Shown piece by piece: positions 16,610 through 49,266 of a stretch of DNA of 64,000 bases; positions within the stretch are counted from its first letter, which is position 1; each line of letters starts with the position of its first letter. Made by a program: the position numbers and the translations under genes. The stretch comes from Candidatus Latescibacterota bacterium (GTDB lineage: Bacteria > Latescibacterota > UBA2968 > UBA8231). Location: assembly GCA_022819745.1 (NCBI GenBank), contig JAJEGS010000030.1, forward strand, positions 1 to 64,000. Reading direction: 5' to 3'. The notes under the pieces are model-generated. The model was given only the letters and a program-made list of their open reading frames with translations. It had not been told where the DNA came from and did not search any database.

Positions 16610-16781
16610 GACACAGGCTCCTTCTACCGCCCGCTGCGGAGCGGATTCTAGTTGCGCTTTGGACTATCTCACCGCTGCGAAGTGGCACTTATCGCCGGTA
16701 GCGGTGTTAGATAATTTGACAGCCCGTTTAAGTCCCTTTTTTTTGCCTATCTAACCTCGAACTTCTGAATGGAGCTTCATC

Positions 16782-17384
16782 ATGCAACGCGCCTTGCCTC
16801 TCTTCGTCCTCTTACTAGCGCTGCCGCTGACCGCCCACGCCTTTGATGGAAAACGCGAGGGGTTTATGTTCGGTTTGGGCCTTGGGCCGAGCTACCAGTC
16901 CATCGAGCAAGAGTGGCTCATCGACGGCGAACCTTCCCGGCACAAGAACAGCGACTCGGCATTCGGGATGGCGATCCAGCTCGGCTACGGCCTCACTGAC
17001 CACCTCGTCTTAGGCTGGATCTTGGACTTAGGCAACGACACCAACGACGACGAGACCAAGCTCCTCGGCAAAGCGGTCGCCAAGGGCAACACCAGCTTTG
17101 AGATCGACGGCTTTAGCGCAACCTATTTCTTCAAAAAACGCGCCCCATCGCCCTTTGTCGAAGCCGTCATCGGCACCGCGCGCTGGGACGACGGCGGCGA
17201 CAACGTCCTCGATGGCCTCGGACTGGCCGGTAGTATAGGCTACGAGGTGCGCAAGAGCTGGATGGTCAAAGGCACCGTTGGCTGGGGCGCGCCAAGCGCC
17301 GAGGCCACAATCGGCGATCAGGCTATCAAAGCCGACGTCACGGGCTTAGTTATCGCCTTCAACGCCAGCTATCTCTGGTACTGA
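16782..17384 (+). CDS. Small outer-membrane beta-barrel protein
   Basis: The 200-residue product has a signal peptide (about 1-20, ending TAHA). It then shows an 8-strand barrel pattern of alternating hydrophobic segments (FMFGLGLGPSYQSI, GMAIQLGYGLTDHLVLGWILDL, FEIDGFSATYFF, PFVEAVIGTARWD, LAGSIGYEVRK, WMVKGTVGWG, VTGLVIAFNASYLWY). It ends in aromatic Tyr, as barrel proteins recognised by BamA usually do. It resembles OmpA/OmpX-like or general outer-membrane beta-barrel domains; no ligand can be named. It stands alone between oppositely oriented genes. Confidence 0.78.
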   Translation: MQRALPLFVLLLALPLTAHAFDGKREGFMFGLGLGPSYQSIEQEWLIDGEPSRHKNSDSAFGMAIQLGYGLTDHLVLGWILDLGNDTNDDETKLLGKAVAKGNTSFEIDGFSATYFFKKRAPSPFVEAVIGTARWDDGGDNVLDGLGLAGSIGYEVRKSWMVKGTVGWGAPSAEATIGDQAIKADVTGLVIAFNASYLWY

Positions 17385-19614: not shown

Positions 19615-19616
19615 GC

Positions 19617-19742
19617 CTAGCTCCTTTGCAAGCGGCCCAACGCCGCGAGTGGTTGGTCAGTTTCAGCTTTGAGTAAGAAAAAGGCGATGCGGACGCGCAA
19701 GCCCTCGCGTCCGTATGGCAGGTGTCCATCAACTAGACAAAA
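19617..19742 (-). pseudogene. 3' remnant of a class V aminotransferase gene
   Basis: The translated relic reads LPYGREGLRVRIAFFLL (then KAETDQPLAALG) and ends at a TAG at 19617-19619. It matches the C-terminus of the intact class V aminotransferase at 48092-49261 (LPHGREGLRTSITFFLLESE, then IDELLAALNSL), at DNA as well as protein level. Nothing of the catalytic domain remains; the adjoining sequence reaches the end of the deacetylase gene. It is a decayed gene end, kept perhaps because it holds the ribosome site of the enolase-family gene. Confidence 0.7.
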
Positions 19743-21848: not shown

Positions 21849-22135
21849 TGCCGTTGAAGTTAGTCGAATACCAAATTTACCGACTATATCCTGCAATACC
21901 AATATCGCCGTATCCTCGGGGAAGAAATTTGCAAGCAACAGGTCGATTGACTAGGTGATACGTCGAGGCTTTTGGTCAGAGCGACCAATTGGGCTTTGCC
22001 TATCCTCGCGGCTCCTTTGAATATCACATCGGAGGAGATCGCTCGCTACCGCCGATGTTTAAGGTCGCCGACCGGCCCCCAAGGGAGTTGAAATTACAAG
22101 GAATTAGAGATCAGCAGTGCGCTTTTCATGGCAGA
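21849..22135. repeat. Duplicated segment, copy A, left part
   Basis: About 114 bases (21849-21962) match 34598-34712, and 21962-22135 match 35648-35820, with scattered substitutions. In copy A these two pieces are joined directly, so nearly the whole MscS gene that lies between them in copy B is missing. The right piece runs into the last codons of the BrkB gene. Confidence 0.85.
21962..22090 (+). pseudogene. 3' remnant of an MscS channel gene
   Basis: The frame reads VEAFGQSDQLGFAYPRGSFE and on to SLPPMFKVAD, nearly identical to the C-terminus of the intact MscS protein encoded at 34847-35776. A one-base insertion near 22080 (CCCCCAAGGG against CCCCAAGGC) shifts the frame so the original stop is lost. 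No channel domain remains, so it cannot be functional. Confidence 0.85.
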
Positions 22136-23057
22136 GTTGGGCGATCTCAGCGCCGGCGATGAAGACGATGGCTGCAAAGTAGAGCCACCAAGCCATGGCC
22201 ACCGATAGAACGTAGGCCCCGTATAAGTACCAGATAGAGGCGAAATGGCTCAGATAGTAGCCGAAAAGCCATTCGGCGAGTTTCCACAGCAGGGCGGCCC
22301 AAAAAGCGCCTATAGCTAGTACCTGTATCCGAGGTTGCCGATCGGGAACCAGCCAGTACAGGCCAAGAAACACGGCAAAAATTATGGCGAGGGAGGCGAG
22401 CTCATAGATATAGGTCATATAGGAATGCAGCGGAGACAGGACGACGGCGACGACCGCGGCCAAAATGGGCAACAGGAGAACCGACAGCAGGAAAGTCCCC
22501 AACACCAAGAGTACCATGGCGAGATCCCTGATCTTGTCCACTACCGCCGGCAAGGCCATGCGAAAAAAATTCACCCTGTGCTCTAGAGTACTCGCATCCT
22601 TCAATTTGTTTACTGATACCGGCCATTCCTTGAACATTTTCGCCACAAAATTATGCTCGTGCTCGGACGCTTGGAAGATCGTGTTGAGGAGAGTTCTCAT
22701 GCTGCTGAACAGGCCGCTGACACTCAGCAGTAGAATCAACAGGCCGGAAATCCCATAGGCCTCTTTGAATTCGACAACGCCAGAGATGCGCGAGGATAGA
22801 GCATCCTTCAGGTACGCGGCCTGTTCTTCATAGGGAATGAACAGCTCCACCGTCCTATTGATCAAGTAGGTCATGGATGTCGGATCCAAGACTGCTTCGA
22901 GTGCAAAGAAAATAAGGAAGACCAAAGGGACGAGGCACAGGAGGGTAGCAAAAGCCAAGCCGCCGGCGAACAGGAAGAGATGATGGTTGCTCATCCTGAC
23001 ATACAGACCGCCCAGATAGTAGGCCCAGAAGTCCTGTTTAGCTATTTGTTCGTTCAT
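22104..23057 (-). CDS. YihY/BrkB-family inner-membrane protein
   Basis: The 317-residue protein has the six-helix BrkB/YihY pattern: helices near 25-50 (LFLFAGGLAFATLLCLVPLV), 90-115, 185-215, 225-250, 255-275 and 280-305. The family feature is the N-terminal hydrophobic FAGGLAFATLLCLVPLVFL. Older annotations call this family ribonuclease BN; its true role is unresolved, with transport or envelope functions proposed. ATG 23057 is preferred to the TTG at 23069. Its last codons (CHEKRTADL, stop) lie inside the duplicated segment; the same codons survive as a relic at 35789-35820, where the rest of the gene has been lost. Confidence 0.87.
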   Translation of the reverse strand: MNEQIAKQDFWAYYLGGLYVRMSNHHLFLFAGGLAFATLLCLVPLVFLIFFALEAVLDPTSMTYLINRTVELFIPYEEQAAYLKDALSSRISGVVEFKEAYGISGLLILLLSVSGLFSSMRTLLNTIFQASEHEHNFVAKMFKEWPVSVNKLKDASTLEHRVNFFRMALPAVVDKIRDLAMVLLVLGTFLLSVLLLPILAAVVAVVLSPLHSYMTYIYELASLAIIFAVFLGLYWLVPDRQPRIQVLAIGAFWAALLWKLAEWLFGYYLSHFASIWYLYGAYVLSVAMAWWLYFAAIVFIAGAEIAQLCHEKRTADL

Positions 23058-23096
23058 TTCTTCTCGCAAGCCACTCTCGCTTGCAAGGACCGTAGG

Positions 23097-23411
23097 TCGA
23101 TCAATACGAGGATCACGGTCGCGTCTTTGGAGAGTCGGGAGGAGCGGTATTCGATGGTTTCGATTTTAGTCGCCCGGCCGCGATCGATTCGTCCACTGTC
23201 GTCTGGCGTCTCATCTGCGCGAGCTGACGCAGATCGGCGGTTTCGTCGAACTCGTCGACGATTTCCTTGCCGATGATTTCTTCGATGACATCCTCCATCG
23301 TGATCAGGCCGGCCACGCCGCCGAACTCGTCGAGGACCACAAACATCTGCTGATGTTGGTGCATCAGCATCGGCATCAGATGATCCGCAGACACTGAATC
23401 GGAGACAAACT
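23097..23411. repeat. Duplicated segment, copy A, right part
   Basis: This matches 35834-36141 with about one difference per 10 bases, beginning at TCGATCAATACGAG and ending abruptly at GGAGACAAACT. It holds the 3' end of a CNNM gene. The right junction abuts the glutamate dehydrogenase gene. Confidence 0.88.
23113..23411 (-). pseudogene. 3' remnant of a CNNM/CorC transporter gene
   Basis: The frame encodes the second CBS domain and tail of a CNNM protein (FVSDSVSADHLMPMLMHQHQ, DEFGGVAGLITMEDVIEEII, then EIVDEFDETADLRQL), almost identical to the intact protein at 35850-36944. The membrane domain and first CBS domain are absent. The frame extends a few codons into unrelated sequence to 23433 before its first Met. 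It is probably not translated usefully, although a free CBS fragment cannot be excluded. Confidence 0.85.
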
Positions 23412-23429
23412 CATTTACAGTTCGCACCA

Positions 23430-24875
23430 TCAATACACCATCTCTCGATAGCTCTGCGCAATTTTCTCGATCGCCACGACGTACGCCGCGGTGCGCAGGT
23501 CATGCACCTTATCATGATTCAAAAACACCTCGCGCATCTCGTTGTACGCCTGCCGCATGGTATCGTCCAAGCCAGATCGCACCAAATCCAGCTCATCGGC
23601 CCCGCGCATCAAGTCGTGCCGCTGGGTTTCGGGCAGGGGTTTGCCGACCGCCGTCTCGATTGCCTCGACGATGCGCTGTCCGCGCAACTCGTCGAGGCGC
23701 CGATCCATGCGGCCGAAGCGGATGTGGGACAGGTTCTTGATCCATTCGAAGTAGGAGACGGTCACGCCTCCTGCGTTCAGGTAAGCGTCTGGAATCATCA
23801 CCTTGCCGCGGTCGCGCAGGATTTTGTCCGCCTCGAAAGTGATCGGACCGTTAGCGGCCTCGGCGATCAACCGCGCCTCGATGCGCTCGGCGTTTTCCGC
23901 AGTGATCACCGATTCGATAGCTGCGGGGATCAGGATGTCGCAGTCTGCTTCCAGCAAAAGGCTGCCATCCTCCACAAACTCGGAGTCCCGAAAACCCTCG
24001 CCGCCGCCCTTTTCGCGGCGATAGGTGGCAAGCTCCTCGATGTCTAGCCCGTCCTCACACACTATGGCCCCCTCGCGCTCGATCAGGGCGATCACCTGGA
24101 CGCCATCCTCTTCGGACAGGAACTTCGCAGCGTGGTATCCGACATTCCCTAGACCTTGGATGATTACACGCTTGCCCTCCAAGTCTCCGTCCATCCCGGC
24201 CCTCTGCACATCTTCGGGATGGCGGAAGAATTCCCTGAGGGCGTACTGCACCCCGCGCCCCGTTGCCTCGTTGCGGCCGCGGATGCCGCTCATGTGTACG
24301 GGTTTGCCGGTGACACAGGCGACGGCGTTGATGTCGTTGGGATACAAGGCGCGGTAGGCATCCGCGATCCACCCCATCTCGCGCGCGCCCGTACCCATAT
24401 CGGGGGCCGGTACGTTGAGGCTGGGGCTGATGTAGCCTTTCTTCGTCAACTCCATCGTGAAATTGCGAGTGATCAGCTCGAGCTCGGCCGCGTCGTAGTC
24501 GCGCGGATCGATCTGCAGGGCTCCCTTAGACCCCCCGTACGGGACATCGACGATGGCGCACTTATAGGTCATCAGGGCGGCTAGGGCCTCCACCTCGTCT
24601 TGGTCGGCGATTGGCGCATAGCGGATGCCGCCTTTTACCGGCAGGAAGTGCTCGCTGTGGACGGCGCGCCAACCGGTAAATACCCGAAACTCGCCCCGTA
24701 TGTAAACGGGAAAGCTGACCTGGAACACGGAGTTGCAGGTCCTGATCTGGTCGGCGAGTCCCGGCTCGAGCTCCATCGTGGCGGCGGCCGCCTCGAACAT
24801 CCGGTCAACGCTGCCCTTGAACGACTTGCTCTGCTCTTTCAAATCGGACTCCTCAGCACCTTCTTTTTTGTGCAT
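23430..24875 (-). CDS. Glu/Leu/Phe/Val-type glutamate dehydrogenase
   Basis: The 481-residue enzyme interconverts glutamate and 2-oxoglutarate plus ammonia with NAD(P)H. The substrate domain has the Lys-containing LPVKGGIRYAP and the catalytic region TYKCAIVDVPYGGSKGAL. The Rossmann domain has VIIQGLGNVGYHAAKFL. NGPITFEADKIL and PDAYLNAGGVTVSYFEW complete the family pattern. ATG 24875 with GGAG 5 bases upstream is chosen over the TTG at 24884. Among osmotic and ion genes it may supply glutamate as counter-ion for potassium, but it is also a general nitrogen enzyme. Confidence 0.93.
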   Translation of the reverse strand: MHKKEGAEESDLKEQSKSFKGSVDRMFEAAAATMELEPGLADQIRTCNSVFQVSFPVYIRGEFRVFTGWRAVHSEHFLPVKGGIRYAPIADQDEVEALAALMTYKCAIVDVPYGGSKGALQIDPRDYDAAELELITRNFTMELTKKGYISPSLNVPAPDMGTGAREMGWIADAYRALYPNDINAVACVTGKPVHMSGIRGRNEATGRGVQYALREFFRHPEDVQRAGMDGDLEGKRVIIQGLGNVGYHAAKFLSEEDGVQVIALIEREGAIVCEDGLDIEELATYRREKGGGEGFRDSEFVEDGSLLLEADCDILIPAAIESVITAENAERIEARLIAEAANGPITFEADKILRDRGKVMIPDAYLNAGGVTVSYFEWIKNLSHIRFGRMDRRLDELRGQRIVEAIETAVGKPLPETQRHDLMRGADELDLVRSGLDDTMRQAYNEMREVFLNHDKVHDLRTAAYVVAIEKIAQSYREMVY

Positions 24876-25056
24876 GTTCTCCAACCCTTATTATTTGATG
24901 ATGGCCAGAGTTCGGTTTCTCCATACCGCGTAATATATGGGGATCGCGCCGCGCCAGACAAACACAGTTTGCCCGCCTGACGCGGATTTTCTACTTTTTT
25001 ACTCCGCACTGATTCGAATGTACCCTGAACACAGGTTTTCTTCGCTAAAAACGCAC

Positions 25057-27153
25057 ATGGCTATCCCCAAGTTCTTCCGCCCCGTTCGAGAACTCAACGA
25101 CGAAGAGCGCCAGCGCGGGTTGGGCAACATGACCCGGCAGGCAATCTCAGCGGCAGGTGCCGACGGACTGGCATCCGGCGGGTTTCTCGCCTCGTTCGCC
25201 CTGATTTTAGGAGCCTCCAATTTCCACATCGGTATCATGACGGCCATCCCGTTCATCATGCAGCCCTTACAGCTAGTCGCGGTGCTCGCCATCGAGCGAT
25301 TGCGGCTGCGCAAGGCCGTCGCGGTCACCGCCTATTTCTTGGCCTACGCAACCTGGATACCGGTCGCGCTGCTTCCCTTCTTGGTCGAGGTGCCCAACCC
25401 GAGCGCCGTAACCCTCATGCTCGTGTTCATCGCCCTGCGAGGCATAAGCAACGCCTTCGTGAACGCGAGTTGGAACGGCTGGCTGCGCGACCTCGTGCCG
25501 CAGGACCTGATGGGCAAATTCTTCGCCCAGCGTCTGCGAGTGGCGACGATTGCGGCGGCGGTGTCGGGGCTTATTGCGGCCCTCTATATCGACTGGTGGA
25601 AGACATCCGGCCCGAGCGATGAGATCTTCGCCTATTCGTACGCGATGCTATTCGGCAGCGTCGTGCTGGGATTCGGTGCTGTCGGGTTCATGGCGCGCAT
25701 GCCGGAGCCACAGATGGTCGTCCCCATCGACGAACGTCCCTCAGTATTCAGCAGCCTCGGAGCACCATTCCGCGACCGCAACTTCCGCCAGCTAATCAAT
25801 TTCCTGTTCCTGTGGAACTTCGTCGCCCATCTGGCGGTCCCCTTCTTTACCGTTTACATGCTGACCAAGCTCGACATGAGTCTGACCTGGGTCGTGGGGC
25901 TAGGCGTGTTGAGTCAACTCGCCAACGTCCTCTTCCTGCGGGTCTGGGGGCCGTTCGTCGATCAGTTCGGCAGCAAGGTGGTGCTGTCGCTTTCCTCGTC
26001 CCTCTACTTCCTCGTCATCCTCGGCTGGACCTTCACCACGCTGCCCGAAAAACACGCATTCACAGTGCCTCTGCTTGTGGCCCTGCACATGCTGATAGGA
26101 ATCGCAAGCGCCGGCATCAACATCGCGACGACGACAATCCGCATGAAGATGGCACCGCAGGCCCAAGCCATGACCTACCTGACGGCCGCATCCCTAGCGG
26201 CCAGCCTCGGCGCGGGCGTCAGCCCGCTGCTCGGCGGCGCTTTCGCCGACTTTTTCAGCGTGCGTCACCTCGAAATCGCAGTGCAGTGGGTCGATCCGGT
26301 GCGCACCATCGGTTTTCCCGCGGTCTTTCTGACCGGCTTCGATTTCCTGTTTGTCATCGCCTTCGTCCTCGGTCTATTCACCCTCGGCGTACTGGCGGGC
26401 ATTCGGGAGGAAGGGGAAGCGGAAAGTAAAGTCGTGATGGACGAACTCGTGTCGCAGACGCGCCAAAACCTGCGGGTGCTGACCTCCGTCCCAGGCTTGA
26501 GCTTCGCAGCAAATTTTCCAGTAGAGTCTCTCCGTAGGCTCCCTCCCATACCCGGGCTCGATGTGGCCGTCGGCGTCACTTCCTACCAGCTATCCTCCAC
26601 CATCAAGGCTGCGGTCGAAGGACTCAACTACGGGCAGTTGCGGGCCGGCCAATTGACGGATCACGTCAGACAGTCGGTCGAAAAAGCGGCAGACACAGTA
26701 GAGCAGATCGGCAAACAGGGTGCTGAGGTGGCGACGGGTGCGACCGAAGGGGCCATGTGGGCGGCGGCGGATGTCGCGATGGGAGTCGGACGCGTCGCCG
26801 AGGAAGCTATGCAGGGCACTATGCAGGCGCTCGCCAAAACCGCGACCGATCCGCTCGACGCACTGCGCGGCGCCACGCACGGCGTCATCCAAGGGGCGAG
26901 CGAGGCCGGGCTACACGTGGGCAACGCCGTCAGGCACGCGGTGAAGGCGGCGCGCGAAGCGGCTGGCGATCTCGGCGTTTCAGAGCAGCAGGCGGGGCAG
27001 GTGGCGGCACAGGCAGCCGTCGAATCGGCTGCCCAGCTCGGCAAGGAAGTAGAGACCGAGGTCGTCGATGCCGTCCTGCACGAACTGATGGACGATACCG
27101 ATACGCGGCCCGCAGAGGAAACAGCCTCCGACGATCGCTCGAAACAAACTTAG
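25057..27153 (+). CDS. MFS transporter fused to a long Ala-rich amphipathic tail
   Basis: The 698-residue protein has about 12 membrane helices (roughly residues 25-450) of the major facilitator superfamily. Recognisable blocks are GFLASFALILGASNFHIGIM, RGISNAFVNASWNGWLRDLV and GPFVDQFGSKVVLSLSSSL. After about residue 460 comes a tail of about 240 residues rich in A, G, E, K, T and V with 11-residue-like periodicity (AVEKAADTVEQIGKQGAEVA, EAMQGTMQALAKTATDPLDA), resembling LEA or apolipoprotein-type amphipathic helices. The ATG at 25057 (MAIPKFF) fits the fold start; an upstream frame to 24937 is unlikely. Substrate unknown. Confidence 0.82.
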   Translation: MAIPKFFRPVRELNDEERQRGLGNMTRQAISAAGADGLASGGFLASFALILGASNFHIGIMTAIPFIMQPLQLVAVLAIERLRLRKAVAVTAYFLAYATWIPVALLPFLVEVPNPSAVTLMLVFIALRGISNAFVNASWNGWLRDLVPQDLMGKFFAQRLRVATIAAAVSGLIAALYIDWWKTSGPSDEIFAYSYAMLFGSVVLGFGAVGFMARMPEPQMVVPIDERPSVFSSLGAPFRDRNFRQLINFLFLWNFVAHLAVPFFTVYMLTKLDMSLTWVVGLGVLSQLANVLFLRVWGPFVDQFGSKVVLSLSSSLYFLVILGWTFTTLPEKHAFTVPLLVALHMLIGIASAGINIATTTIRMKMAPQAQAMTYLTAASLAASLGAGVSPLLGGAFADFFSVRHLEIAVQWVDPVRTIGFPAVFLTGFDFLFVIAFVLGLFTLGVLAGIREEGEAESKVVMDELVSQTRQNLRVLTSVPGLSFAANFPVESLRRLPPIPGLDVAVGVTSYQLSSTIKAAVEGLNYGQLRAGQLTDHVRQSVEKAADTVEQIGKQGAEVATGATEGAMWAAADVAMGVGRVAEEAMQGTMQALAKTATDPLDALRGATHGVIQGASEAGLHVGNAVRHAVKAAREAAGDLGVSEQQAGQVAAQAAVESAAQLGKEVETEVVDAVLHELMDDTDTRPAEETASDDRSKQT

Positions 27154-27195
27154 GTCGTAGAACGGCCCCAACCGTCCAGCAATTGCTGCGGCTTC

Positions 27196-28818
27196 TCAGA
27201 TGGACTCGGCGTCTTTCGCTTCACCTTCGTCCGAAGCCGTTGGTTCGGTGTCCTGCAAGGCGGCAAAACTGACTAGCTTGTCCTTGAGGCGTCTAGAATA
27301 GGTGACGAAGTTGGAGAGTGTGCCGGCATCGGACCGGTCTGGATCTGCCAACAACGGCAGCAAATCTCGGTTGATCTCGTCCAGCATCCCTTGGAGTTCG
27401 TTAGCTCTTGCCGTGACGTCCAATTGGTCCCCCTCCGCTAGCGACTTGTGAATGTCGTCGAACAACGCCAGCGTTTGGCTAGAGAGCTTCCGCACCATAA
27501 GTAAGATGTCGCTTTTCAACTCAACGTAGCGCTCGCTCATAGCTTTCTTGGTGTTGAAAATGTCTTCTATTGAATCGTATATCTGGAAGAGATAATCAAA
27601 CTGAGTGTGCAGTCGCAGTAATTCTCTCGATTCGCGTTCATGGGAAACGGAGGAGACGGCTTTGGCAAAATAGCCCACGTACTCCTTTTCCAAGAAGTTG
27701 ACGTATTCCATTCGCTTGGCCGACGCTTCAAAGATGCTGCGGTAGTTGGACTCAATGCTCAGCGTCACGAGATTGTAGCTTTCCTGTAAAAAGCCCAACA
27801 GATCCGCGAGATTGCGGCGCAAGTCGGACTTCACCGTCTCAAAAGCGCTTTGCTCATTAAACGTCGGAATGTCCAATCGCGCAAAATCCATCTTATCCTC
27901 GCCCAAAAGCGCATCAACCAGTCGAGTGAAGGGATTGATCAATACGACGAAAATCAGACTCGCCACCACGTTAAATACGAGGTGTATATTGGCCAATGCG
28001 ACTGCCGGGTTGGCATCGAACTCATTCAGCCTATCTCCGAACAGCAGGAGAATCGGCAGAAAAATCAACACGCCGCCAACATTAAAAAAGAAATGACTGA
28101 GCGCGGTCTTTTTGGCGGCAACGTCCATATTTAACATCGCGAGCAATGCCGTTGCCGTGGTGCCGATATTGGCCCCCATAATGAGCGGAACGGCGTTTTC
28201 AAGGCTCAATAATCCTTGTTGCGTAAAAATGATCGCCAGTCCGGTTGTCACCGAACTCGATTGCACCGCGGCCGTAAATAGACAACCCACCAAAATGGCA
28301 AATAACGGATTCTGCGGCTGGATGAGGTACTTGGTCAGTGCTGGTTCATTCTGGAGCGGTGCGAGTGCCGCAGAAATAAGATTGAGGCTGAAAAAGACAA
28401 AGCCAAAGTAAAATATGGATTTGCCGAAGATGGAAATTTTCGAGCGAACGAACGAAAGTAAAAAGCCTATAATGATAAATACGGGCGCAAAAGCCGTGAG
28501 TTTGAACGCAACTAGTTGAGCCGTAATCGTGGTGCCAATATTCGCTCCAAAGACAATACCCACGCTGCTTTTGAATGAGAGAACGCCGGCATTAACCAAG
28601 CCAACGGCGATTACCGAGGTCGCCGAACTAGACTGGATAACAGCGGTTACTAAGGCACCAATAAGGACGCCTATGGCCGGAATTTTAGTCGCTCTGGCGA
28701 GGAACTTGCGGAACTTTTCGCCAGAGATTTGTTCAATCTCCGTGGAAAAGCTCTCCAACCCAAAAACGAAGAGAATGATGGCGGTTACTCCGGCCATAAT
28801 AACATGGATGTGTTCCAT
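27196..28818 (-). CDS. Na/Pi cotransporter (NptA/PNaS family) with PhoU-like domain
   Basis: The 540-residue protein has two inverted halves of the Na/Pi cotransporter fold, each with the QSSSA-type signature: AVIQSSSATSVIAVGLV (about 60-76) and AAVQSSSVTTGLAIIF (about 182-197). Also seen are GANIGTTITAQL and GANIGTTATALL. The C-terminal 210 residues form a helical PhoU-like domain. It likely moves phosphate with sodium, and such proteins may export phosphate. GAGGAA precedes the ATG. Base composition looks more A/T-rich than its neighbours by eye, consistent with acquisition. Confidence 0.92.
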   Translation of the reverse strand: MEHIHVIMAGVTAIILFVFGLESFSTEIEQISGEKFRKFLARATKIPAIGVLIGALVTAVIQSSSATSVIAVGLVNAGVLSFKSSVGIVFGANIGTTITAQLVAFKLTAFAPVFIIIGFLLSFVRSKISIFGKSIFYFGFVFFSLNLISAALAPLQNEPALTKYLIQPQNPLFAILVGCLFTAAVQSSSVTTGLAIIFTQQGLLSLENAVPLIMGANIGTTATALLAMLNMDVAAKKTALSHFFFNVGGVLIFLPILLLFGDRLNEFDANPAVALANIHLVFNVVASLIFVVLINPFTRLVDALLGEDKMDFARLDIPTFNEQSAFETVKSDLRRNLADLLGFLQESYNLVTLSIESNYRSIFEASAKRMEYVNFLEKEYVGYFAKAVSSVSHERESRELLRLHTQFDYLFQIYDSIEDIFNTKKAMSERYVELKSDILLMVRKLSSQTLALFDDIHKSLAEGDQLDVTARANELQGMLDEINRDLLPLLADPDRSDAGTLSNFVTYSRRLKDKLVSFAALQDTEPTASDEGEAKDAESI

Positions 28819-28874
28819 TGATTCCTCTCTTATATCCCAAGGTATTGAGATTCGCTAGCGAATAATCTGAGAAT

Positions 28875-30287
28875 TCACGGCAGAAAGGCCAAGGCTTCTT
28901 CCGGGGTCGCCTCGCCATCCAACACAGCTCGACGCAGGGCTGCGGTCAGGCTCTCGGGCCCGGTTGGCGGGAGAGGTGGAGCGGCCTGCGGGTCGCCGAT
29001 CCACGCTGCCAGTTCGGCGTCCGCCAGCCATAACCCGTACACCGGTCGCCGCCCGACGAACCCATTGCCGCACGCCGAACACCCCACTGGTGTGCCGACC
29101 TCATCGCCGACTGCTGCATTCAGCCGCGCCGCTTCTTCGTCCTGCAGAGGCCGACGCCGAGTGCACTGGGGACACAGCCGACGCACAACGGCCTTGTCGG
29201 TGCCGCCCAGCAAAACCCGACTAAGCGCCGCCCGGTCAATCTCAAATTCCAGCAACTTCTGCACCGCCTCTATCATACTCCCGGCCCGCATTTGGGCCAG
29301 CACCACAGCACCGCTACGCACCCCTTCGAGCAGCGCTTGGGCTTGGTCAACATCTCGCACTTCGTCTAGCACCACAACATCGGGACTCATGTCCAGCGCC
29401 GCCTGCCACAAGGTTTTAAAATCAGGGATAGCACCATCTCGTAACTCTAGCTGCACCAATTGCTCAGCCCGGTACCCAACGCGGTGATCCAGGCACACCA
29501 CCAACCGTCCCGCATCGGCCCAGTCCCGGGCCAACACCAAGCGATGACGCTCGTCTTCGGGCCCTCCCGAGCCAACGAGCAGGAAAAGCCCCGGGTGTGC
29601 CCCAAATTCTCGTCTGAGGCGTTCGGCTTGCTCCGGCATGTAGCCCAGATCTTCCAACCTTGTCCCTTCGTAATCAGTGAACAGATGGAGATGGAAATGA
29701 GAGCCCAAAGTGGAGGGCACTTCGGTCAACCGCAACTGACAGCCTACCTCCCCCCAAGTTTTCCTAGCTAGGCCTTCACTCAATTGATCGGGCGCAGCTT
29801 CTGCCAAGACGGTTAGCCCCTTAAGCCACGTCCCCAAAGGCTCTGTCAGGCAGTCCTCAAAACGGGCCATTTCCCGGCAGTGCTCCACGCTATAGAGCAG
29901 GCGCAAGCCAGCGTACAGAGGATCGAAATACACATCCCTAGCTCCCTCACCCAAGGCGTCCTGCAAAATGCGCTCGCCTATTTCGGCTACTTGTTCGGCA
30001 GCGGGTTTGTCGGCTACATCCTCGATCACTACCCCAGGACGGTCTGCCAAACGCCCGGCAAAAAACGCTAACCAACGGTCAATCGCCTCCTGCAATAGGT
30101 CGCGCTCCTGCCTCAGTACCTCGGCATAGCGCTCGATCTCCTCTAGGTCGAAGCACAGATTGCGGTCGCTTTTCTCGCCTTTGAGAGCTTTGTCCTGCAC
30201 CCGGCGATATATTTCCGGGCGGCTCAAGCCGAGTTTATCCACCGCCTCGTCGAGGGAGAAGAAGCCTTGCTGTTGGACCATGCTCAC
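28875..30287 (-). CDS. Degenerate GspE/PilB-like protein with N-terminal HTH
   Basis: The 470-residue protein begins with an excisionase/MerR-like HTH (FFSLDEAVDKLGLSRPEIYRR, about 9-60). Then comes a type II/IV secretion ATPase-like region. The C-terminal hallmark VVRRLCPQCTRR...CSACGNGFVGRRPVYGLW and the Walker-B-like SPDVVVLDEVRDVDQAQALL are recognisable. But Walker A is replaced by LLVGSGGPEDERHR and the His box by VLAQMRAGS. It therefore probably neither binds nor hydrolyses ATP. No pilus or secretion gene is adjacent. GTG 30287 overlaps the MscS stop (GTGA); ATG 30281 is an alternative. Role unknown. Confidence 0.72.
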   Translation of the reverse strand: MSMVQQQGFFSLDEAVDKLGLSRPEIYRRVQDKALKGEKSDRNLCFDLEEIERYAEVLRQERDLLQEAIDRWLAFFAGRLADRPGVVIEDVADKPAAEQVAEIGERILQDALGEGARDVYFDPLYAGLRLLYSVEHCREMARFEDCLTEPLGTWLKGLTVLAEAAPDQLSEGLARKTWGEVGCQLRLTEVPSTLGSHFHLHLFTDYEGTRLEDLGYMPEQAERLRREFGAHPGLFLLVGSGGPEDERHRLVLARDWADAGRLVVCLDHRVGYRAEQLVQLELRDGAIPDFKTLWQAALDMSPDVVVLDEVRDVDQAQALLEGVRSGAVVLAQMRAGSMIEAVQKLLEFEIDRAALSRVLLGGTDKAVVRRLCPQCTRRRPLQDEEAARLNAAVGDEVGTPVGCSACGNGFVGRRPVYGLWLADAELAAWIGDPQAAPPLPPTGPESLTAALRRAVLDGEATPEEALAFLP

Positions 30288-31099
30288 TCCTCCCGTTTCA
30301 GGTCAATCGCTGTAGCTGGCACTGTAACCGCCAGACCTGCGGTCTCAAAAGCTGTGCGCATGCGAATGACCACCTCGCCGAAGATATTCATGTCATCGAC
30401 ATCGCTCCATGCTACCAGCATCATCTTCACATCCTCCGCGGTCACTTCCGACACAGTGCAGGAAGGAGCGGGATCGTCGAGTACCTGCTCGTGCTGGGCT
30501 AGCACGTCGAGGGCCAAGTCTGCGACCCAGTCCACATCCACATCGTACGGCACGGCGATGGGGATGCGGATGGCGCGCTGCCCAAGGGAAGAAAAATTGA
30601 CGATTTTATTGCGCCAGATCACCATATTGGGCACGACCAGCCGCACATTGTCGAGCGTCACTAGGCCAGTATATGTCATCTTGACCTCCGTGACCCGACC
30701 GATCTGCGGCGGCGGTCCAAACTCTATGAGGTCGCCCTGCTTGAAGGGCCGGGCTGCCAACATCATCAACCCCGAAAAATAATTGGCAATAGACCGGCGT
30801 GCCCCCAAACCGATGATGATGCCGCTAATGCCAAAGGTGGCCAGTACCGCTTCTACTGGAAAACCAATCTTCTTGAGGGCTGATACCCATCCCACAATCA
30901 AGGTTAGGTAGCGCAGTACCGTACCAAAATAATCCCACAGGATTTCGTCCCAGCCTAGGCGCTTGGCAGTGCGGGAGACAAAGCGCTTGACCCAGCGGCT
31001 GGCCAGCCAAGACGCTAAGGCAATGAGCAGTCCTAGCACCAAATCGGCGAGGCTGCTTATCAGCCATTCCCACAACCGATCTACATAGACATCAATCAT
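30284..31099 (-). CDS. MscS-family small-conductance mechanosensitive channel
   Basis: The 271-residue protein has N-terminal helices (about 10-32 and 60-80), the pore helix VEAVLATFGISGIIIGLGARRSIANYFSG and the MscS beta domain (KQGDLIEF...GRVTEVKMTYTGLVTLDN..LVVPN). The C-terminal domain is short. The channel opens on membrane tension to release solutes during hypo-osmotic shock. It overlaps the upstream potassium-channel gene by 8 bases and the downstream GspE-like gene by 4, so the three form one coupled operon. Confidence 0.92.
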   Translation of the reverse strand: MIDVYVDRLWEWLISSLADLVLGLLIALASWLASRWVKRFVSRTAKRLGWDEILWDYFGTVLRYLTLIVGWVSALKKIGFPVEAVLATFGISGIIIGLGARRSIANYFSGLMMLAARPFKQGDLIEFGPPPQIGRVTEVKMTYTGLVTLDNVRLVVPNMVIWRNKIVNFSSLGQRAIRIPIAVPYDVDVDWVADLALDVLAQHEQVLDDPAPSCTVSEVTAEDVKMMLVAWSDVDDMNIFGEVVIRMRTAFETAGLAVTVPATAIDLKREE

Positions 31100-32252
31100 G
31101 GTCCAAACTCTCCGCTACGCCCACTGCCCGCTGCGCCATGAGTCGTCCGCCCAAAGTAGAAGGCGAGATGATCTCATCGACGCCTATACTCTCCACCTTG
31201 GCGATATTTTCCTCGTCCTCAATGCGCACAATAATGCGGAACTTGTGCTGCTCCCCGGCTTCGCGCAGGGTGCAGGCAGTAAGAGCCACTAAAGTATTGG
31301 TGGCGTCCGAATCCGTGGCCGCGATTACCGCGGTAGCACTGGATAGATTGGCCTGCTCCAACACGGCTCGCTCCGTGGGGTTGCCTTGCAAAACGTCAAG
31401 GCCGCTGTTTTTGAGATATGCAACGAACTCTTCGCGCTCTTCGATAATGAGGAACGGCACCTGTCGCGTGCGCAATTCATCGGTGATGCTCTCGGTTACT
31501 TTGGTATAGCCGCACACTACTATGTGATCCACGCTCTTTTGAAATTTGCTCACCACAGCGAATACTCCTTTTAGCCGATTCTCGATCAGCGGTCCCAGCA
31601 ATACGGTTAGGGCCGTGATAAACGATCCAATGCCAACGCTCACCATGGAGATAGCAAACCACTTGGCGTTGGTACTCTGGGGCAGCATATCCCCGTATCC
31701 TAAGGTGCTATACGTGACGACCGTGAAATAGACCGCGTCCGCCCACGTCTCAATGCCGCTGAACTCAGCGCGTAGCAAATACGCCCCGCCAATGCCGTAG
31801 GCCAAAGCGAAGATGATCGACAGCACGGCAATCACTTCGGCATAGCTCCAGCGGTGGCGCTCGCTGTGGTGAGAAAACTCGGTGCGCAATAGCCCCAAAA
31901 ACACCAAACCCGCTGCCGACAAGATACAGTTCCGCAATGGCAGTCCTTGGTATAGATGGGACAAAACGTTGAGCAGCAGCGCCACCACGGCCCAGTTGCG
32001 CGCGCGCCGTCGCCGCTCGGCCAACCCCTTGCCTAAAACGATGAATACGACGCCCAAGAAAACCGCCACGAAACCACCCAACTGCGGGGCGGGGACCACT
32101 TCCAGATAGCGGCGCATTTCGCCCAGTTCGACAGCCAGATACTGGTCGAGGTGAAAGATCTCGCCTAAGCCCATGGCCAAGGTGAAAAAGCCGTTGGCGA
32201 CCATAAAGGCAGCAACGAGATACGGCACATATCGCCATATAAGCGCCTTCAT
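31092..32252 (-). CDS. Two-domain potassium channel with TrkA-N (RCK) domain
   Basis: The 386-residue protein has four N-terminal hydrophobic helices (to about 122), then a pore module. The selectivity filter is TVVTYSTLGYGD (177-188) between helices at about 140-162 and 195-220. A RCK/TrkA-N domain with Rossmann motif HIVVCGYTKVTESI (about 241) follows. It conducts potassium under control of a nucleotide or ion bound to the RCK domain. The extra N-terminal helices are unusual for two-TM channels. It is the first gene of the operon with MscS and the GspE-like protein. Confidence 0.9.
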   Translation of the reverse strand: MKALIWRYVPYLVAAFMVANGFFTLAMGLGEIFHLDQYLAVELGEMRRYLEVVPAPQLGGFVAVFLGVVFIVLGKGLAERRRRARNWAVVALLLNVLSHLYQGLPLRNCILSAAGLVFLGLLRTEFSHHSERHRWSYAEVIAVLSIIFALAYGIGGAYLLRAEFSGIETWADAVYFTVVTYSTLGYGDMLPQSTNAKWFAISMVSVGIGSFITALTVLLGPLIENRLKGVFAVVSKFQKSVDHIVVCGYTKVTESITDELRTRQVPFLIIEEREEFVAYLKNSGLDVLQGNPTERAVLEQANLSSATAVIAATDSDATNTLVALTACTLREAGEQHKFRIIVRIEDEENIAKVESIGVDEIISPSTLGGRLMAQRAVGVAESLDHD

Positions 32253-32277
32253 AGTTTGCTCCAGTACCTCAAACCAT

Positions 32278-34479
32278 TTACAGCCATTTCTCGCTCCAAG
32301 CGTAGCCCAGCCCCACTTGCAGTTCCGATTTGACAGCCAGCGCCTGAACTTGACTATCGCGGTGCAGAAACAAGTTGGCGTCGAGGGTAACGGCCAGATT
32401 GCCCAGCAACCGGATGCGCAGGCTGTTGAAATTCTGCAGCGACAGCGTACTCCTTTGCCTTACGCCCCAAAAGAATTTGGTCTGAGAGGACACAACATTA
32501 CCCGGCCGCAATTCTTCTTTGTACTCGGGTGCTATTTCTAGCCCCATTACATTGGTCGCTTGGACCTGATCTCTTTCCACAGCCAGACCGATGCGGACGC
32601 CAGCATTCGAGCCAAATTTTTTATGCAGCCCCCCTTTGAACCGCAGCGCAAGGGGATGTTTCTCCCCCAAGGCGGCTGTCCATACCGTGTTAATGTCGAG
32701 CCCTAAAAAAGGAGCGAGTCCGCGCTGCGACCACGTGTAGAGCACGTCCCCTTCCAAACGGTCCACGGCCTCGCGGAGGCTGCCGCGGGTGCGCAACTGG
32801 CCGAAACCGGTGCGCAGCAGGGCAATCAGTGTGCCCCGCTGGCTCAAGTAGCTGGTGCGGCTCTCGAACCGTCCATTCCAGGCCAAGGCATCGTGGCCCC
32901 CTAGAAAGGAGACGCCGCTGTAGCGGCTAGCCGAGGCGTCGAGAGTTGTATGCGACAGCGAGCCGTTGAGCTTGGTGCTGTTCTTCCAAACGCTCCGTCC
33001 GCCCCGCCGCACTCCGTCCCAGCGCCCCAAGTTGGGGTATCTGCGGATGTGATCCTCCAGCATCTGCTTCAGCGTAATCCAATCCCCCGATTCCATATTG
33101 GGGGCCTCTTTTTTGGTCCAGTAGTCGTCCCCCCCAGAGGCTAGATACGAAGTAGTGGCCACTTGGTACTCCTCCTCTGGCACTAGAGGCCGACCGCCGA
33201 TCAAGCTGGTCTGGACATCGTACCCCGAAAAAACTAGTCGCTGACTTCCCGCAGGCCGCTTGGCGCTGCTAGCGGCCATAGCTTTCAACTGGCTCCCCAG
33301 CACCTCCATGCGAACTAGGACATCATCGTAGCGCACTAGGTTGGCCAGAGTCCCTAGCTGGATATCGCCATCCAAGGTTAGGCTCCGCAGGGTTCCTTGG
33401 TTAATCACGCTCACTTCCGTGTTCAGCCGCGTGCGGATCAGATCGGCGACCCATTGGGCAGCGTCCTCAATGGGTTCATTGGTATTGCCAAGCTGCTGTT
33501 GCTGGGCTCGCTGTACGGCTTCTTGCTGCTCGTCAATAAGAGACGCCACGGTCTGGTCTTGGGGAACCTCGGGGCTTAGAGGCACTAGCCGAGGCTGCAC
33601 ATCCACCAAGACGACCTTGTCCTCCTTTCGGCGCACGGTCATGTCCATCTGTCCCAAGAAAGCGCCCCAACCCGGCGTGGAGACCAAATGCCCACCTCCG
33701 GCAAAGCGCACCACATGTTCGCCAGCACCTCTGCGGGTTTCCCGGCCAAAGCCTCCGGCGATGCACAGGTCCACTTGTGGGAAAGCCCACACCAAGTCGC
33801 GTGCCTCCTGAGCGCTCATGTGGACCAAGACCACTTGCAGATCCGCCTGCCCTGCCGGTCCCTCCAATAAAGTCTTCAAAACCAAGTGAGGGTCGTCGAT
33901 GTTGAGAGCGGGATTTTTCACAGGGTTGATCACTTTTAGGGCCTGGGGCGAGAGCAAGCCGATGAGGGCAATCTGTAGTCCGGCCCGCTCCACGAGGACA
34001 AAGGGGGCAAACAAGGCCGTGCTGTCCGGTGCTACCCGCACATTGGCACTTAGCACATTGAAATTCGCCTCGCTAGCGCGGACGCGAAGGGAGTCGAGGC
34101 CGTAGTCGAATTCGTGGTTTCCCACCACCATCGCATCATAGCCCATCGCGTTCATCAACCGCACGACCATTCGACCGGCGTCCACACCAGCGAGGGGAGA
34201 ATCGCCCAAGGCATCGCCCCCGTCCACGATCAGAATGGAGTCAGAGTGAGCACTGCGCTGCTCCTCTATCAGATGGGCCAAGCGGGCAAAACCGCCCCAG
34301 TCGGCTTCGTCGAAATAAGGCTCTGGCCGCAGTCGGCCCAGCAGGTCGTTGGTGTGCAGGATGGTCAACCGATGCTCGCTTTCTGCGGCAGCGGCTGCAC
34401 TCCAGATCAGGACCATCAATAAAGTACGCCACCAGACCGTGTAGGCACCCCGATTGAGGCGCAATTCAAACCTGTCCAA
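32278..34479 (-). CDS. UshA/5'-nucleotidase-like protein fused to a beta-barrel-like domain
   Basis: The 733-residue protein has a signal peptide (about 14-33), then a metallophosphoesterase domain (37-300) and a 5'-nucleotidase C-terminal domain (about 330-470, INQGTLRSLTLDGDIQLGTL, YLASGGDDYW). From about 500 to 733 alternating strands (GTLIALLRTGFGQLRTRGSL, VLYTWSQRGLAPFLGLDINT, AVTLDANLFLHRD, LQVGLGYAWSEKWL) resemble an outer-membrane barrel. Several metal ligands are altered: HTNDLLG (L47 for His) and AGGFGRE for the GHTH motif; GGD and GNHEFD remain. Activity is therefore doubtful. The start is a TTG preceded by GAGGAT. The fusion is seen directly; its location in the outer membrane is inferred. 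Confidence 0.72.
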   Translation of the reverse strand: MDRFELRLNRGAYTVWWRTLLMVLIWSAAAAAESEHRLTILHTNDLLGRLRPEPYFDEADWGGFARLAHLIEEQRSAHSDSILIVDGGDALGDSPLAGVDAGRMVVRLMNAMGYDAMVVGNHEFDYGLDSLRVRASEANFNVLSANVRVAPDSTALFAPFVLVERAGLQIALIGLLSPQALKVINPVKNPALNIDDPHLVLKTLLEGPAGQADLQVVLVHMSAQEARDLVWAFPQVDLCIAGGFGRETRRGAGEHVVRFAGGGHLVSTPGWGAFLGQMDMTVRRKEDKVVLVDVQPRLVPLSPEVPQDQTVASLIDEQQEAVQRAQQQQLGNTNEPIEDAAQWVADLIRTRLNTEVSVINQGTLRSLTLDGDIQLGTLANLVRYDDVLVRMEVLGSQLKAMAASSAKRPAGSQRLVFSGYDVQTSLIGGRPLVPEEEYQVATTSYLASGGDDYWTKKEAPNMESGDWITLKQMLEDHIRRYPNLGRWDGVRRGGRSVWKNSTKLNGSLSHTTLDASASRYSGVSFLGGHDALAWNGRFESRTSYLSQRGTLIALLRTGFGQLRTRGSLREAVDRLEGDVLYTWSQRGLAPFLGLDINTVWTAALGEKHPLALRFKGGLHKKFGSNAGVRIGLAVERDQVQATNVMGLEIAPEYKEELRPGNVVSSQTKFFWGVRQRSTLSLQNFNSLRIRLLGNLAVTLDANLFLHRDSQVQALAVKSELQVGLGYAWSEKWL

Positions 34480-34492
34480 ACTATCTATCCTC

Positions 34493-34562
34493 GCCCAAAA
34501 AAGTGATGCTAGCGCGCAAGTCTTCGCGCTCGTGCGACAGTCTTTTAATCACGGACAACTCC
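34493..34562 (-). pseudogene. Short remnant of a class V aminotransferase 3' end
   Basis: The frame reads MELSVIKRLSHEREDLRASI (then TFLGE), matching MVIKPLPHGREGLRTSITFF of the intact aminotransferase encoded at 48092-49261. The DNA words AAAAAAGTGATGCTAGCGCG and CAAGTCTTCGCGCTCGTGCG align with 48166-48200. Only about 23 codons remain. It lies directly between the nucleotidase-like gene and the duplicated flank. Confidence 0.65.
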
Positions 34563-34597
34563 ATGTTGTGAATTTGACAACTGTCAACATTGGATAG

Positions 34598-34712
34598 TGC
34601 CGTTGCAGTTAGTCGAAAACCAAATTTACCGACTATATCTTGACAATACCAATATCGCCATATCCTCGGGGAGGAAATTTGCAAGCAACTGGTCTATTGA
34701 CTAGGTAATACG
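34598..34712. repeat. Duplicated segment, copy B, flank
   Basis: About 115 bases match 21849-21962 (for example ACCAAATTTACCGACTATAT and TTTGCAAGCAA). It precedes an intact MscS gene here and the Bax gene (on the other strand) in copy A. It may carry a promoter or operator, but no consensus pair is convincing. Confidence 0.8.
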
Positions 34713-34846
34713 CCAAGACGATTTTACATGAATTGGGGAGCATGATACGCTTTCAAGCCTGCAACTCGACCTGTCCCCACTTGGGGTGCAAGGTGCATTA
34801 AAAGGCCGACGCGGCGCGCTTTTTCTTTTATCAAAGGAGCTGACCA

Positions 34847-35776
34847 ATGGAACAGGAAACTACTACTTGGCTGCACGCTGTGGAGGAGTGGTTCAACTAC
34901 TATGTCCCCGAGATGGTGAGAGACATTCTTCCGGCCATTTTGGCGCTAATCGCCATAATAATCGTCCACAAAATTACCAAACGACTCCTCATAAAGGCCA
35001 TGCAGCACCAAAAGCGCGAGGATGCAGATATCCGCCAGCTCCAATCGCTGTTGAAGTATGCCTTCATGCTAGCGGGCATCGTCTTCGTCATTGCCAGCTT
35101 GTCCGGCTCATTGGCCGCTATGGGGTTGACCGCAGCCTTTCTCAGCATGGTGCTAGGTTGGTCCTTGCAACGCCCGGTGACTGGAGTCGCCGCTTGGCTC
35201 ATGGTCATGATCAAGCGTCCTTTCCAAATCGGCGACCGAATCATCATCCAAGGCGTGCGGGGCGACGTGCTCGACATCAGCCCGACGCACGTTCTGTTGG
35301 GCGAAGTAGGTGGGACCATTGGCGGCGAAGAATCCTCTAATCGGGGCATTTTGATCCCCAACGCAGTGCTGTTCGACCAGATGGTCACCAATTACGCGGT
35401 CTCCGAGGAAGCCAAGTACATTCTCGATGAAGTACCCGTGCGGGTTTCCTACGACTCGGACTACCAACTGGCCGAGCAGACACTGATCAACTGCGCTGCT
35501 GAAGTGACCCAAGCAATCATCGAGGAGACCGGCCAAACGCCGTTCATTCGGGCGGAGTTTTTCGATTCCGGGGTATTTATGCGGCTGCGGTATCAATCCA
35601 TCGCGGTCGAGCGGCAACGCATTTCCAGTGAGATTGTGGGAAAAATTGTCGAGGCTTTTGGCCAGAGCGACCAATTGGGCTTTGCCTACCCTCGCGGCTC
35701 CTTTGAATACCACGCTGGAGGAGGTCGCTCGCTACCGCCGATGTTTAAGGTCGCCGACCAGCCCCAAGGCAGTTGA
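34847..35776 (+). CDS. MscS-family mechanosensitive channel
   Basis: The 309-residue channel has helices at about 22-45, 65-88 and the pore-lining region SGSLAAMGLTAAFLSMVLGW. The MscS beta domain (KRPFQIGDRIIIQGVRGDVLDISPTH) follows, then a C-terminal domain (about 195-290). AAGGAG lies 9 bases before the ATG. The last 42 codons are duplicated as a dead relic at 21962-22090. The gene points towards the CNNM gene, converging with it. Together with BrkB it made up the ancestral duplicated unit. Confidence 0.92.
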   Translation: MEQETTTWLHAVEEWFNYYVPEMVRDILPAILALIAIIIVHKITKRLLIKAMQHQKREDADIRQLQSLLKYAFMLAGIVFVIASLSGSLAAMGLTAAFLSMVLGWSLQRPVTGVAAWLMVMIKRPFQIGDRIIIQGVRGDVLDISPTHVLLGEVGGTIGGEESSNRGILIPNAVLFDQMVTNYAVSEEAKYILDEVPVRVSYDSDYQLAEQTLINCAAEVTQAIIEETGQTPFIRAEFFDSGVFMRLRYQSIAVERQRISSEIVGKIVEAFGQSDQLGFAYPRGSFEYHAGGGRSLPPMFKVADQPQGS

Positions 35777-35820
35777 AATTACAAGGAATTAGAGATCAGC
35801 AGTGTGCTTTTCATGGCAGA
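35648..35820. repeat. Duplicated segment, copy B, MscS 3' end and BrkB relic
   Basis: This matches 21962-22135. It spans the last MscS codons, its stop and the short spacer. It also contains the last nine codons plus stop of a BrkB gene (CHEKHTADL on the minus strand, 35789-35818). The remainder of BrkB is absent; only 13 bases separate this piece from the next matching block. Confidence 0.85.
35789..35818 (-). pseudogene. Terminal codons of a lost BrkB gene
   Basis: On the minus strand the codons CHEKHTADL and a TAA stop correspond to CHEKRTADL-stop of the intact BrkB gene at 22104-23057. Sequence identity ends at 35820, marking the deletion boundary. Confidence 0.7.
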
Positions 35821-35833
35821 TCGCCTTGGAACG

Positions 35834-36141
35834 TCGATCAATACGAGGCTCACGGTCGTGTCTTCGGAGGGCTGGGGGAAGCGGGGCCCGACGGTTTTCG
35901 TCGCCCGGCCGCGATCGATTCGTCCACTGTCGTCTGGCGTCTCATCTGCGCGAGCTGACGCAGATCGGCAATCTCGTCGAACTCGTCGACGATCTCCTTA
36001 CCGATAATTTCTTCGATGACATCTTCCATCGAGATCAGGCCAGCCACACCGCCGAACTCATCGAGGACCACAAACATCTGCTGATGTTGGTGCATCAGCA
36101 TCGGCAGCAGATGGTCAGCAGACACTGAATCGGAGACAAAC
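35834..36141. repeat. Duplicated segment, copy B, CNNM 3' end
   Basis: This matches 23097-23411. It is part of the intact CNNM gene here. The homology stops at GGAGACAAACT, in the codons for FVSDS. Confidence 0.87.
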
Positions 36142-36944
36142 TGCACCGGCCGAGTCATCTTCTCGACGGTGTCATCCCAGCGGTCTTCGGCCATGGCCGT
36201 CAGCAAATCTCGCCGGTGGACGAACCCAACCACGTCGTCAACGGAATCGCTGTACACCGGTATGCGGGTGTGCCGCAGGGTTTCCAAATCGCCGCGCAGG
36301 TCTTCCAGTACCGTCGAGGCTTCCAGCGCGTACATCACGACGCGCGGCGTCATCAGGTCTCTGACCGTGAATTTTTTGAGCGAGAGGATGTTCTGAATGA
36401 CCTCGGCCTCGTGCGTCTGGAGACTACCTCCCTTCAAACCCAGCCTCGTCATTACTATAAGTTCCTGCTCAGAGACGGTCTCGCTGTCGCGACCGCGAGA
36501 GATTGCACTGGTCACGGCAGTCGTGACCCAGATCAGAGGCCGAAATAGCGAAACGAGCAGCGCGAGCGGCCAAGCTATGAGCCGCGAAAGGGGCCGACTG
36601 TACACGACGCCCGTCGTTTTGGGGATGATCTCCGACAGCATCAGGATGGCCAGCGTCAGCCCGGCCGAGAACCAGCCGAGCCAATGCTCACCAAATGCTT
36701 CAGCCGCGGCGGCCCCGGCGATCGCCGCGCCACCCGTGTTGGCGATGGTATTGAGAGAGAGAATCGCCGAGATGGGACGCTGAACATCGGCGCGCAACTT
36801 CTGAAGCTGCCGCCCCGCCCGGCTGCCGGCGGCGACCAAGGTCTCCACGTGGCTCGCGGGTACCGAGTAGAGAACGGCCTCGAACAGGGAACACACGGCT
36901 GACACCAATATGACGATGGCCGCAGCAATCGCAACTTCAGTCAT
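35850..36944 (-). CDS. CNNM/CorC-type transporter with paired CBS domains
   Basis: The 364-residue protein has the CNNM membrane domain with helices at about 3-25, 55-80, 90-110 and 118-140 (LSLNTIANTGGAAIAGAAA, LSEIIPKTTGVVYSRPLS). A Bateman module of two CBS domains follows (DLMTPRVVMYALEASTVLED and DEFGGVAGLISMEDVIEEII). The short basic/Pro tail replaces the usual CorC_HlyC domain. Members export magnesium or other divalent cations. GAGGAGC precedes the ATG. Its 3' third is duplicated at 23113-23411. Confidence 0.92.
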   Translation of the reverse strand: MTEVAIAAAIVILVSAVCSLFEAVLYSVPASHVETLVAAGSRAGRQLQKLRADVQRPISAILSLNTIANTGGAAIAGAAAAEAFGEHWLGWFSAGLTLAILMLSEIIPKTTGVVYSRPLSRLIAWPLALLVSLFRPLIWVTTAVTSAISRGRDSETVSEQELIVMTRLGLKGGSLQTHEAEVIQNILSLKKFTVRDLMTPRVVMYALEASTVLEDLRGDLETLRHTRIPVYSDSVDDVVGFVHRRDLLTAMAEDRWDDTVEKMTRPVQFVSDSVSADHLLPMLMHQHQQMFVVLDEFGGVAGLISMEDVIEEIIGKEIVDEFDEIADLRQLAQMRRQTTVDESIAAGRRKPSGPASPSPPKTRP

Positions 36945-39322: not shown

Positions 39323-39341
39323 TCCTTTCGCAACTAGGCTA

Positions 39342-49261: not shown

Positions 49262-49266
49262 GGCAT

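Follow-up and report, generated by a model that had tools for sequence, protein, structure and literature searches.

A stretch of 64,000 nucleotides from a Candidatus Latescibacterota bacterium (GenBank assembly GCA_022819745.1, contig JAJEGS010000030.1, positions 1 to 64,000; hereafter the window) contains two partial copies of a module of three genes, encoding an MscS-type channel, a BrkB/YihY-family protein and a CNNM/CBS-domain protein. Both copies lie inside a hypervariable island that runs from an aminotransferase class V gene (AT) to an enolase-superfamily gene (g18538). The best reading of the data, at a probability of roughly 60%, is a rearranging island in which homologous exchange copied or moved modules and deletions trimmed the resulting redundancy. 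On this view the complementary decay of the copies is one of the outcomes of the island's rearrangement and does not mean that a functional unit was split. The initial annotation, which described the decay, missed this context: the island in which the copies lie also carries fragments of the AT 3' tail.

Two copies with complementary losses

A direct-repeat search across the window recovers the left/right repeat pairs of the initial annotation in register (Table 1); their identity is 91-97%, except for a 65-nt block with 80%. As the remaining direct repeats listed across the whole 64 kb are 30-34 nt long and 71-77% identical, the similarity of the copies is far above chance. The left locus reads R1 (the sequence upstream of MscS), MscS tail, BrkB, CNNM tail; the right locus reads R1, MscS, BrkB end, CNNM. 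Order and strands are the same in both, with MscS opposite to BrkB and CNNM. The losses are complementary, as first described, and this is the retention pattern of the tandem duplication-random loss model. R1 was also considered as a dispersed repeat; this was rejected, as it matched only G011 and G005, once each, among 11 genus genomes.

Pfam, tblastn and alignment confirm that the left BrkB and the right MscS and CNNM are intact, and that the right BrkB is reduced to its last nine codons. Nearly all of the left MscS is indeed gone, with about 42 of 309 codons left; the right-hand MscS protein matches there by tblastn over aa 268-306 (21962-22078, 92%). The loss from the left CNNM is slightly larger than the two-thirds first estimated: the DNA match stops at 23411, which is CNNM codon 268, leaving about the last 97 of 364 codons (73% lost; tblastn with the right-hand protein, aa 263-364 at 23430-23116). 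This remnant abuts the 3' flank of GDH. The joint between R1 and the MscS tail, at 21960-21968, has a short imperfect homology common to both parents.

The right-copy peptide CHEKHTADL is a genuine BrkB end, because the C-terminal motif L-C-x-E is found in 10/10 proteins of a BrkB alignment and the final D-L in 8/10. The right copy holds both ends of the BrkB insertion, so BrkB was once present there. Strong purifying selection acts on the intact right MscS, whose dN/dS (the ratio of nonsynonymous to synonymous divergence) is 0.024 to G011; the corresponding values for CNNM are 0.197 to G011 and 0.095 to G005.

An assembly chimera would be a very improbable source of this arrangement. Both upstream joints recur in other assemblies, where G005 carries an R1 remnant beside a glucosaminidase-domain gene at the same left place and G011 has the order 5'-nucleotidase gene-R1-MscS-CNNM, and the copies are 3-20% different.

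The three genes in relatives

The closest genome to the window is G001, with 23% of sampled 31-mers in common. Across 30 genomes, CNNM has matches in 29, MscS in 13 (five with a best match of 50-99%, eight weaker) and BrkB in 10 (nine at 59-62% identity, one weak); a DNA search of 25 family genomes adds a BrkB in G036 (71% DNA, 64% aa). An intact MscS-BrkB-CNNM trio, which the initial annotation proposed to look for as a single locus in relatives, is found in 0/11 genus genomes and at 0/16 MscS loci, several of which are cut by contig ends. These loci come from a scan of genome contigs with an MscS alignment. CNNM lies near MscS in one of the 16, G011's own, and BrkB in none; the same scan with BrkB finds no relative.

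In G011, MscS and CNNM are convergent and overlap by 4 bp, without BrkB. G005 retains a 57-bp MscS remnant (81%, E 1.6e-8) on one side of CNNM, with no BrkB between, and a different BrkB (59-60% aa) on the other side. The junction sequences of G005 and G011 match each other with a score of 40, against 11.1 +/- 3.8 for shuffles (0/500 reach it), and the stretch concerned is, in G011, the overlapping CNNM end. Compared with the right copy in the window, the two junctions give no match (101/500 and 249/500 shuffles reach the score). Because G011, G005 and the 16 MscS loci lack the trio, MscS, BrkB and CNNM would have stood together solely in the window's past.

These observations bear on the model of the initial annotation, in which an ancestral functional MscS-BrkB-CNNM unit was duplicated within one genome and its two copies then lost different genes reciprocally. 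The shared order and strands, the complementary remnants and the two BrkB-insertion ends in the right copy fit it. The functional three-gene unit is not supported: BrkB is missing between MscS and CNNM in G011 and in the G005 remnant, whose junctions are similar, the 11 genus genomes and 16 MscS loci yield no intact trio, and MscS lies on the opposite strand, so that the three genes form no operon. The splitting of one functional unit into two loci is accordingly not upheld, and the model as a whole is unlikely.

Two further arrangements were seen outside the window. In G036, a tandem pair of full-length CNNM genes (L096, 363-2543) is about 53% identical, each, to that of the window. In two Poribacteria records (L113, L122), only 137-181 bp separate an MscS relative and an amino-acid permease gene resembling window 37052-39361; these neighbours are possibly an older pair.

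An island between two conserved genes

In three genomes (G006, G007, G009) AT stands directly before g18538, with the AT alignment stopping 8-10 bp before the g18538 start. Three others of the 11 genus genomes hold the span on one contig, and in the other five it is split over contigs or an anchor is not seen. The four measured spans are 3.9 kb (G002), 5.8 kb (G008), 27.6 kb (G005) and 28.5 kb (window). On the left outer side the window is collinear with G001, G002 and G005 up to about 19.7 kb. On the right, counting from AT and where contigs reach, collinearity extends 1.4-2.4 kb in G001, G004 and G008, and further in G002 (with an insertion of about 0.8 kb) and G011. Between the anchors, cargo order and content are scrambled from genome to genome. 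In this variation of cargo at a fixed pair of conserved genes, the island agrees with homologous-recombination hotspots without mobile elements.

The cargo includes GDH, MFS, Na/Pi cotransporter, T2SSE-domain, three MscS-type, K+-channel/TrkA-N, 5'-nucleotidase-domain, amino-acid permease, AstE/AspA-type and RimK-type genes; G011 adds a Na+/H+ antiporter gene, and G008 has genes for Rieske, cytochrome b and multihaem cytochrome proteins. In agreement with the initial remark that no transposase is visible, a Pfam scan of 34 distinct proteins, covering the open reading frames (ORFs) of relatives in part, recognised neither integrase nor transposase. The island also encodes a 422-aa protein without a Pfam match (43490-44758), with relatives in G004, G005 and G011; near the start of its gene lies an inverted repeat with 30-nt arms, 13 nt apart and 77% complementary (44664-44736).

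The genomes with AT directly before g18538 are also the most distant genus members in g18538 (82-85% versus 94-99%), and on this comparison the cargo-free state as ancestor is a fair but unproven proposal.

Fragments of the AT 3' tail

Matches to AT were collected by blastn (E<=1e-6) in the window and in 11 loci of 8 relative genomes. The 33 AT-tail matches comprise 7 AT genes, 4 AT N-terminal matches that arose from a deleted AT used as query, 1 duplicate and 21 fragments. The fragments sit at joints between modules, where integrase-driven tandem islands carry direct repeats of the target gene's 3' end. All 21 point in the AT direction; where AT is off the contig, direction was judged by g18538 or by cargo as in the window. 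Reversed sequences give 0 matches, as does the 30.5 kb of the window outside the island (1-17000 and 50501-64000), and in G005 and G008, each a one-contig genome, matches to the tail fall inside the island. The internal scar in the window is 91% identical to the G001 AT tail. The gapped pair 19610-19721/48085-48202 (72%) is absent from the direct-repeat list and was detected by blastn. In G002, a shortened AT (L128, 9842-10123) lacks about aa 69-378 and keeps its start and 3' tail.

An alternative assignment of the repeat at 19600-19722, as a regulatory leader or riboswitch, was discarded: Rfam gives 0 matches at E<=1 over 17000-50000, and the sequence reads as the AT C-terminus.

The left scar of G005 is informative about exchange. 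Left of the AT-tail core it matches the window left scar at 81/95 positions and right-type scars at 20-23 of 35-41; on the other side of the core, the right-site flank agrees with it at 53/72, 57/72 and 66/83 positions and the left scar at 27/65. It is a hybrid of a left-type and a right-type scar that switches at the AT-tail core, and a direct trace of exchange between sites. A further use of the G005 left-site flank, as proof of a former MscS module, was dropped, since in G005 and G001 this flank is followed by a BrnT/BrnA pair.

Such pairs (PF04365, PF14384) stand beside AT-tail fragments or AT in G001, G003, G004, G005 and G008, where they, like the fragments, mark joints of modules. The pairs of these five genomes are closely related and occupy the left site, the right site or a position beside AT. 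In G005 a second BrnA stands with no BrnT partner. More distant relatives of BrnT are present at other places in these genomes, and no BrnT/BrnA was found in the window.

The AT tail may also carry a recombinase target. Its inverted arms, for example GGACGCG-AGGGCTTG-CGCGTCC in the left scar, form a candidate recombinase core, around which breakpoints vary by eye. Short inverted arms with an 8-bp spacer, differing between copies, are seen in the AT-tail copies at 19690-19715, 34505-34530 and 48175-48195. One possibility would be site-specific integration, in which successive elements entered at the AT 3' end and each left a partial 3' end behind, as in ssrA/tRNA islands. The cargo-free AT-g18538 arrangement in three genomes, the 3'-end direct repeats, the accreted modules and the BrnT/BrnA cargo agree with this. 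However, the Pfam scan recognised no integrase family, though one could act in trans, and the repeats are 40-140 bp long, diverged (about 75-96%) and by eye share no single breakpoint, which makes this route quite unlikely. A related proposal, that the AT 3' end and BrnT/BrnA form a cassette system whose short segment is recognised by a recombinase encoded elsewhere in the genome, is about as unlikely. If true, genes for housekeeping transporters would be reordered as modules at a single chromosomal address, with no on-site mobile element.

Table 1. Positions of the anchors, module parts, scars, repeat pairs and BrnT/BrnA pairs; coordinates are those of the window unless a record is named
Feature	Position	Strand	Evidence or remark
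g18538, MR_MLE enolase-superfamily gene, left island anchor	18538..19614	-	PF13378, PF02746
AT 3'-tail fragment, left boundary scar, just upstream of g18538	19606..19721	-	blastn E 4.9e-22; tblastn aa371-417, 49%
R1, left copy	21849..21967	none	repeat match; remnant also in G005
MscS 3' remnant, left copy	21962..22103	+	tblastn
BrkB/YihY-family gene, left copy, intact 321-aa ORF	22104..23069	-	PF03631, 115 bits
CNNM 3' remnant, CBS domain (PF00571), and sequence beside BrkB start, left copy	23096..23411	-	repeat match, tblastn
AT 3'-tail fragment, internal scar, upstream of 5'-nucleotidase-domain gene	34497..34540	-	blastn E 8.2e-13
Flank between internal AT scar and R1	34541..34597	none	in G001 followed by BrnT/BrnA, not R1
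R1, right copy	34598..34717	none	repeat match; corresponding place in G011
MscS-type channel gene, right copy, intact	34847..35776	+	PF00924; 99% aa to G011
Ends of BrkB insertion, gene body missing, including BrkB last nine codons	35777..35849	-	repeats, alignments
CNNM/CBS gene, right copy, intact	35850..36944	-	PF01595, PF00571; 95% aa to G011
AT, aminotransferase class V, right island anchor	48092..49354	-	PF00266
Repeat pair	21849-21893 / 34598-34642		
Repeat pair	21894-21967 / 34644-34717		
Repeat pair	21962-22079 / 35648-35765		
Repeat pair	22077-22135 / 35762-35820		
Repeat pair	23096-23160 / 35833-35897		
Repeat pair	23161-23411 / 35892-36142		
BrnT/BrnA pair	L064 (G005) 6536-7097		
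BrnT/BrnA pair	L070 10459-11017		
BrnT/BrnA pair	L127 3897-4455		
BrnT/BrnA pair	L129 1441-1999		
BrnT/BrnA pair	L130 5569-6127		

Divergence of the copies and weighing of the readings

Under the rearranging-island reading, both loci would be copies of a module [R1 - MscS -> <- (BrkB) <- CNNM] within the island of about 28.5 kb. The older form of this module would be the convergent pair MscS -> <- CNNM, with BrkB inserted between them later. Homologous recombination between AT-tail repeats, either intrachromosomal or with sister-strain DNA, could move, copy and delete modules. With two module copies present, each gene would have had a spare, and independent, presumably neutral, deletions would have cut back MscS and CNNM on the left and BrkB on the right. 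The simplest order of events would then be: the MscS-CNNM pair, copies at two sites, BrkB insertion, exchange between the copies, and trimming.

Several observations weigh against this proposal. Neither copy in the window is flanked by AT-tail fragments on both sides, the nearest fragment to the left copy being 2.1 kb away. At a looser threshold (E<=0.01), three short tail matches (15-27 bp) run in the opposite direction. The exchange joint in G005 carries BrnT/BrnA and not MscS, and the joint between the left CNNM remnant and GDH comes without independent confirmation. Outside the genus, five genomes (G012, G013, G015, G018, G036; loci L142, L143, L145, L146, L147) have a relative of AT downstream of the g18538 relative, the reverse of the order in this genus, so that either state may be ancestral there; at the G014, G032 and G035 loci, AT was not seen within 1.5 kb of the g18538 relative.

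The divergence of the copies belongs with these points. Synonymous divergence (dS), computed on 78 CNNM codons, is 0.25 between the left and right copies, 0.20 between the right copy and G011 and 0.40 between the left copy and G011; to G005 it is 0.33 for the left copy and 0.39 for the right. The window copies are about 6% apart, as sister species are, and the left copy could therefore be an import and not an internal duplicate; by this evidence the duplication need be neither recent nor internal. Site patterns are mosaic. Of the eight informative sites in the 251-bp CNNM tail, five place the left copy with G005 and the right copy with G011, three pair the window copies and none supports the third grouping. 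R1 with its edges has four sites of the first kind, and one and two for the other groupings. The MscS tail with the BrkB junction has 14 sites that pair the window copies, against two and two for the others. No single duplication accounts for these patterns.

These same data lend some weight to a xenologous left copy, in which homologous recombination brought a sister strain's module with BrkB into the left site of the island, and the two copies afterwards exchanged the BrkB junction. Consistent with this, copy divergence equals species divergence, the site patterns are mosaic, R1 occupies the same left place in G005, and BrkB has homologs of up to 96% identity, with public-data proteins at 89-96%. 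Yet no donor locus was seen, the BrkB homolog search having carried no genomic context, and this reading is rather unlikely.

Comparison with known systems

Reciprocal decay alone is an ordinary outcome of duplication. The interest of the rearranging island lies in one address that takes several states within a genus (no cargo, 3.9 kb, 5.8 kb and about 28 kb), with scars that make its joints readable. This locus would make the gain and reordering of cargo at hotspots free of mobile elements testable in uncultured bacteria. No description of it occurs among the literature matches listed.

Three known systems resemble the island in part. As in the tandem duplication-random loss model, described for mitochondrial genomes, the window combines duplication, complementary loss, changed order and remnants. 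In contrast to that model, its copies are non-adjacent and second copies of the intervening genes are not found; within the window, no second remnants of the stretch from GDH to the 5'-nucleotidase gene are seen.

The tandem ssrA islands of Dehalococcoides (PMC3146451) likewise have accreted modules, 3'-end direct repeats and a region of high plasticity. There the repeats are 20 bp long and sixteen islands carry a serine-recombinase integration module, whereas the window has a protein gene in place of ssrA, diverged repeats of 40-140 bp and no recombinase seen.

Homologous-recombination hotspots without mobile elements, as described in the 2017 source (PMC5635113), have conserved anchors, cargo turnover and no recognised mobility genes, and the island shares these features, with two anchors. 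Unlike the hotspots as portrayed there, the cargo of the island holds internal fragments of the AT anchor, so that exchange would be possible at internal joints as well.

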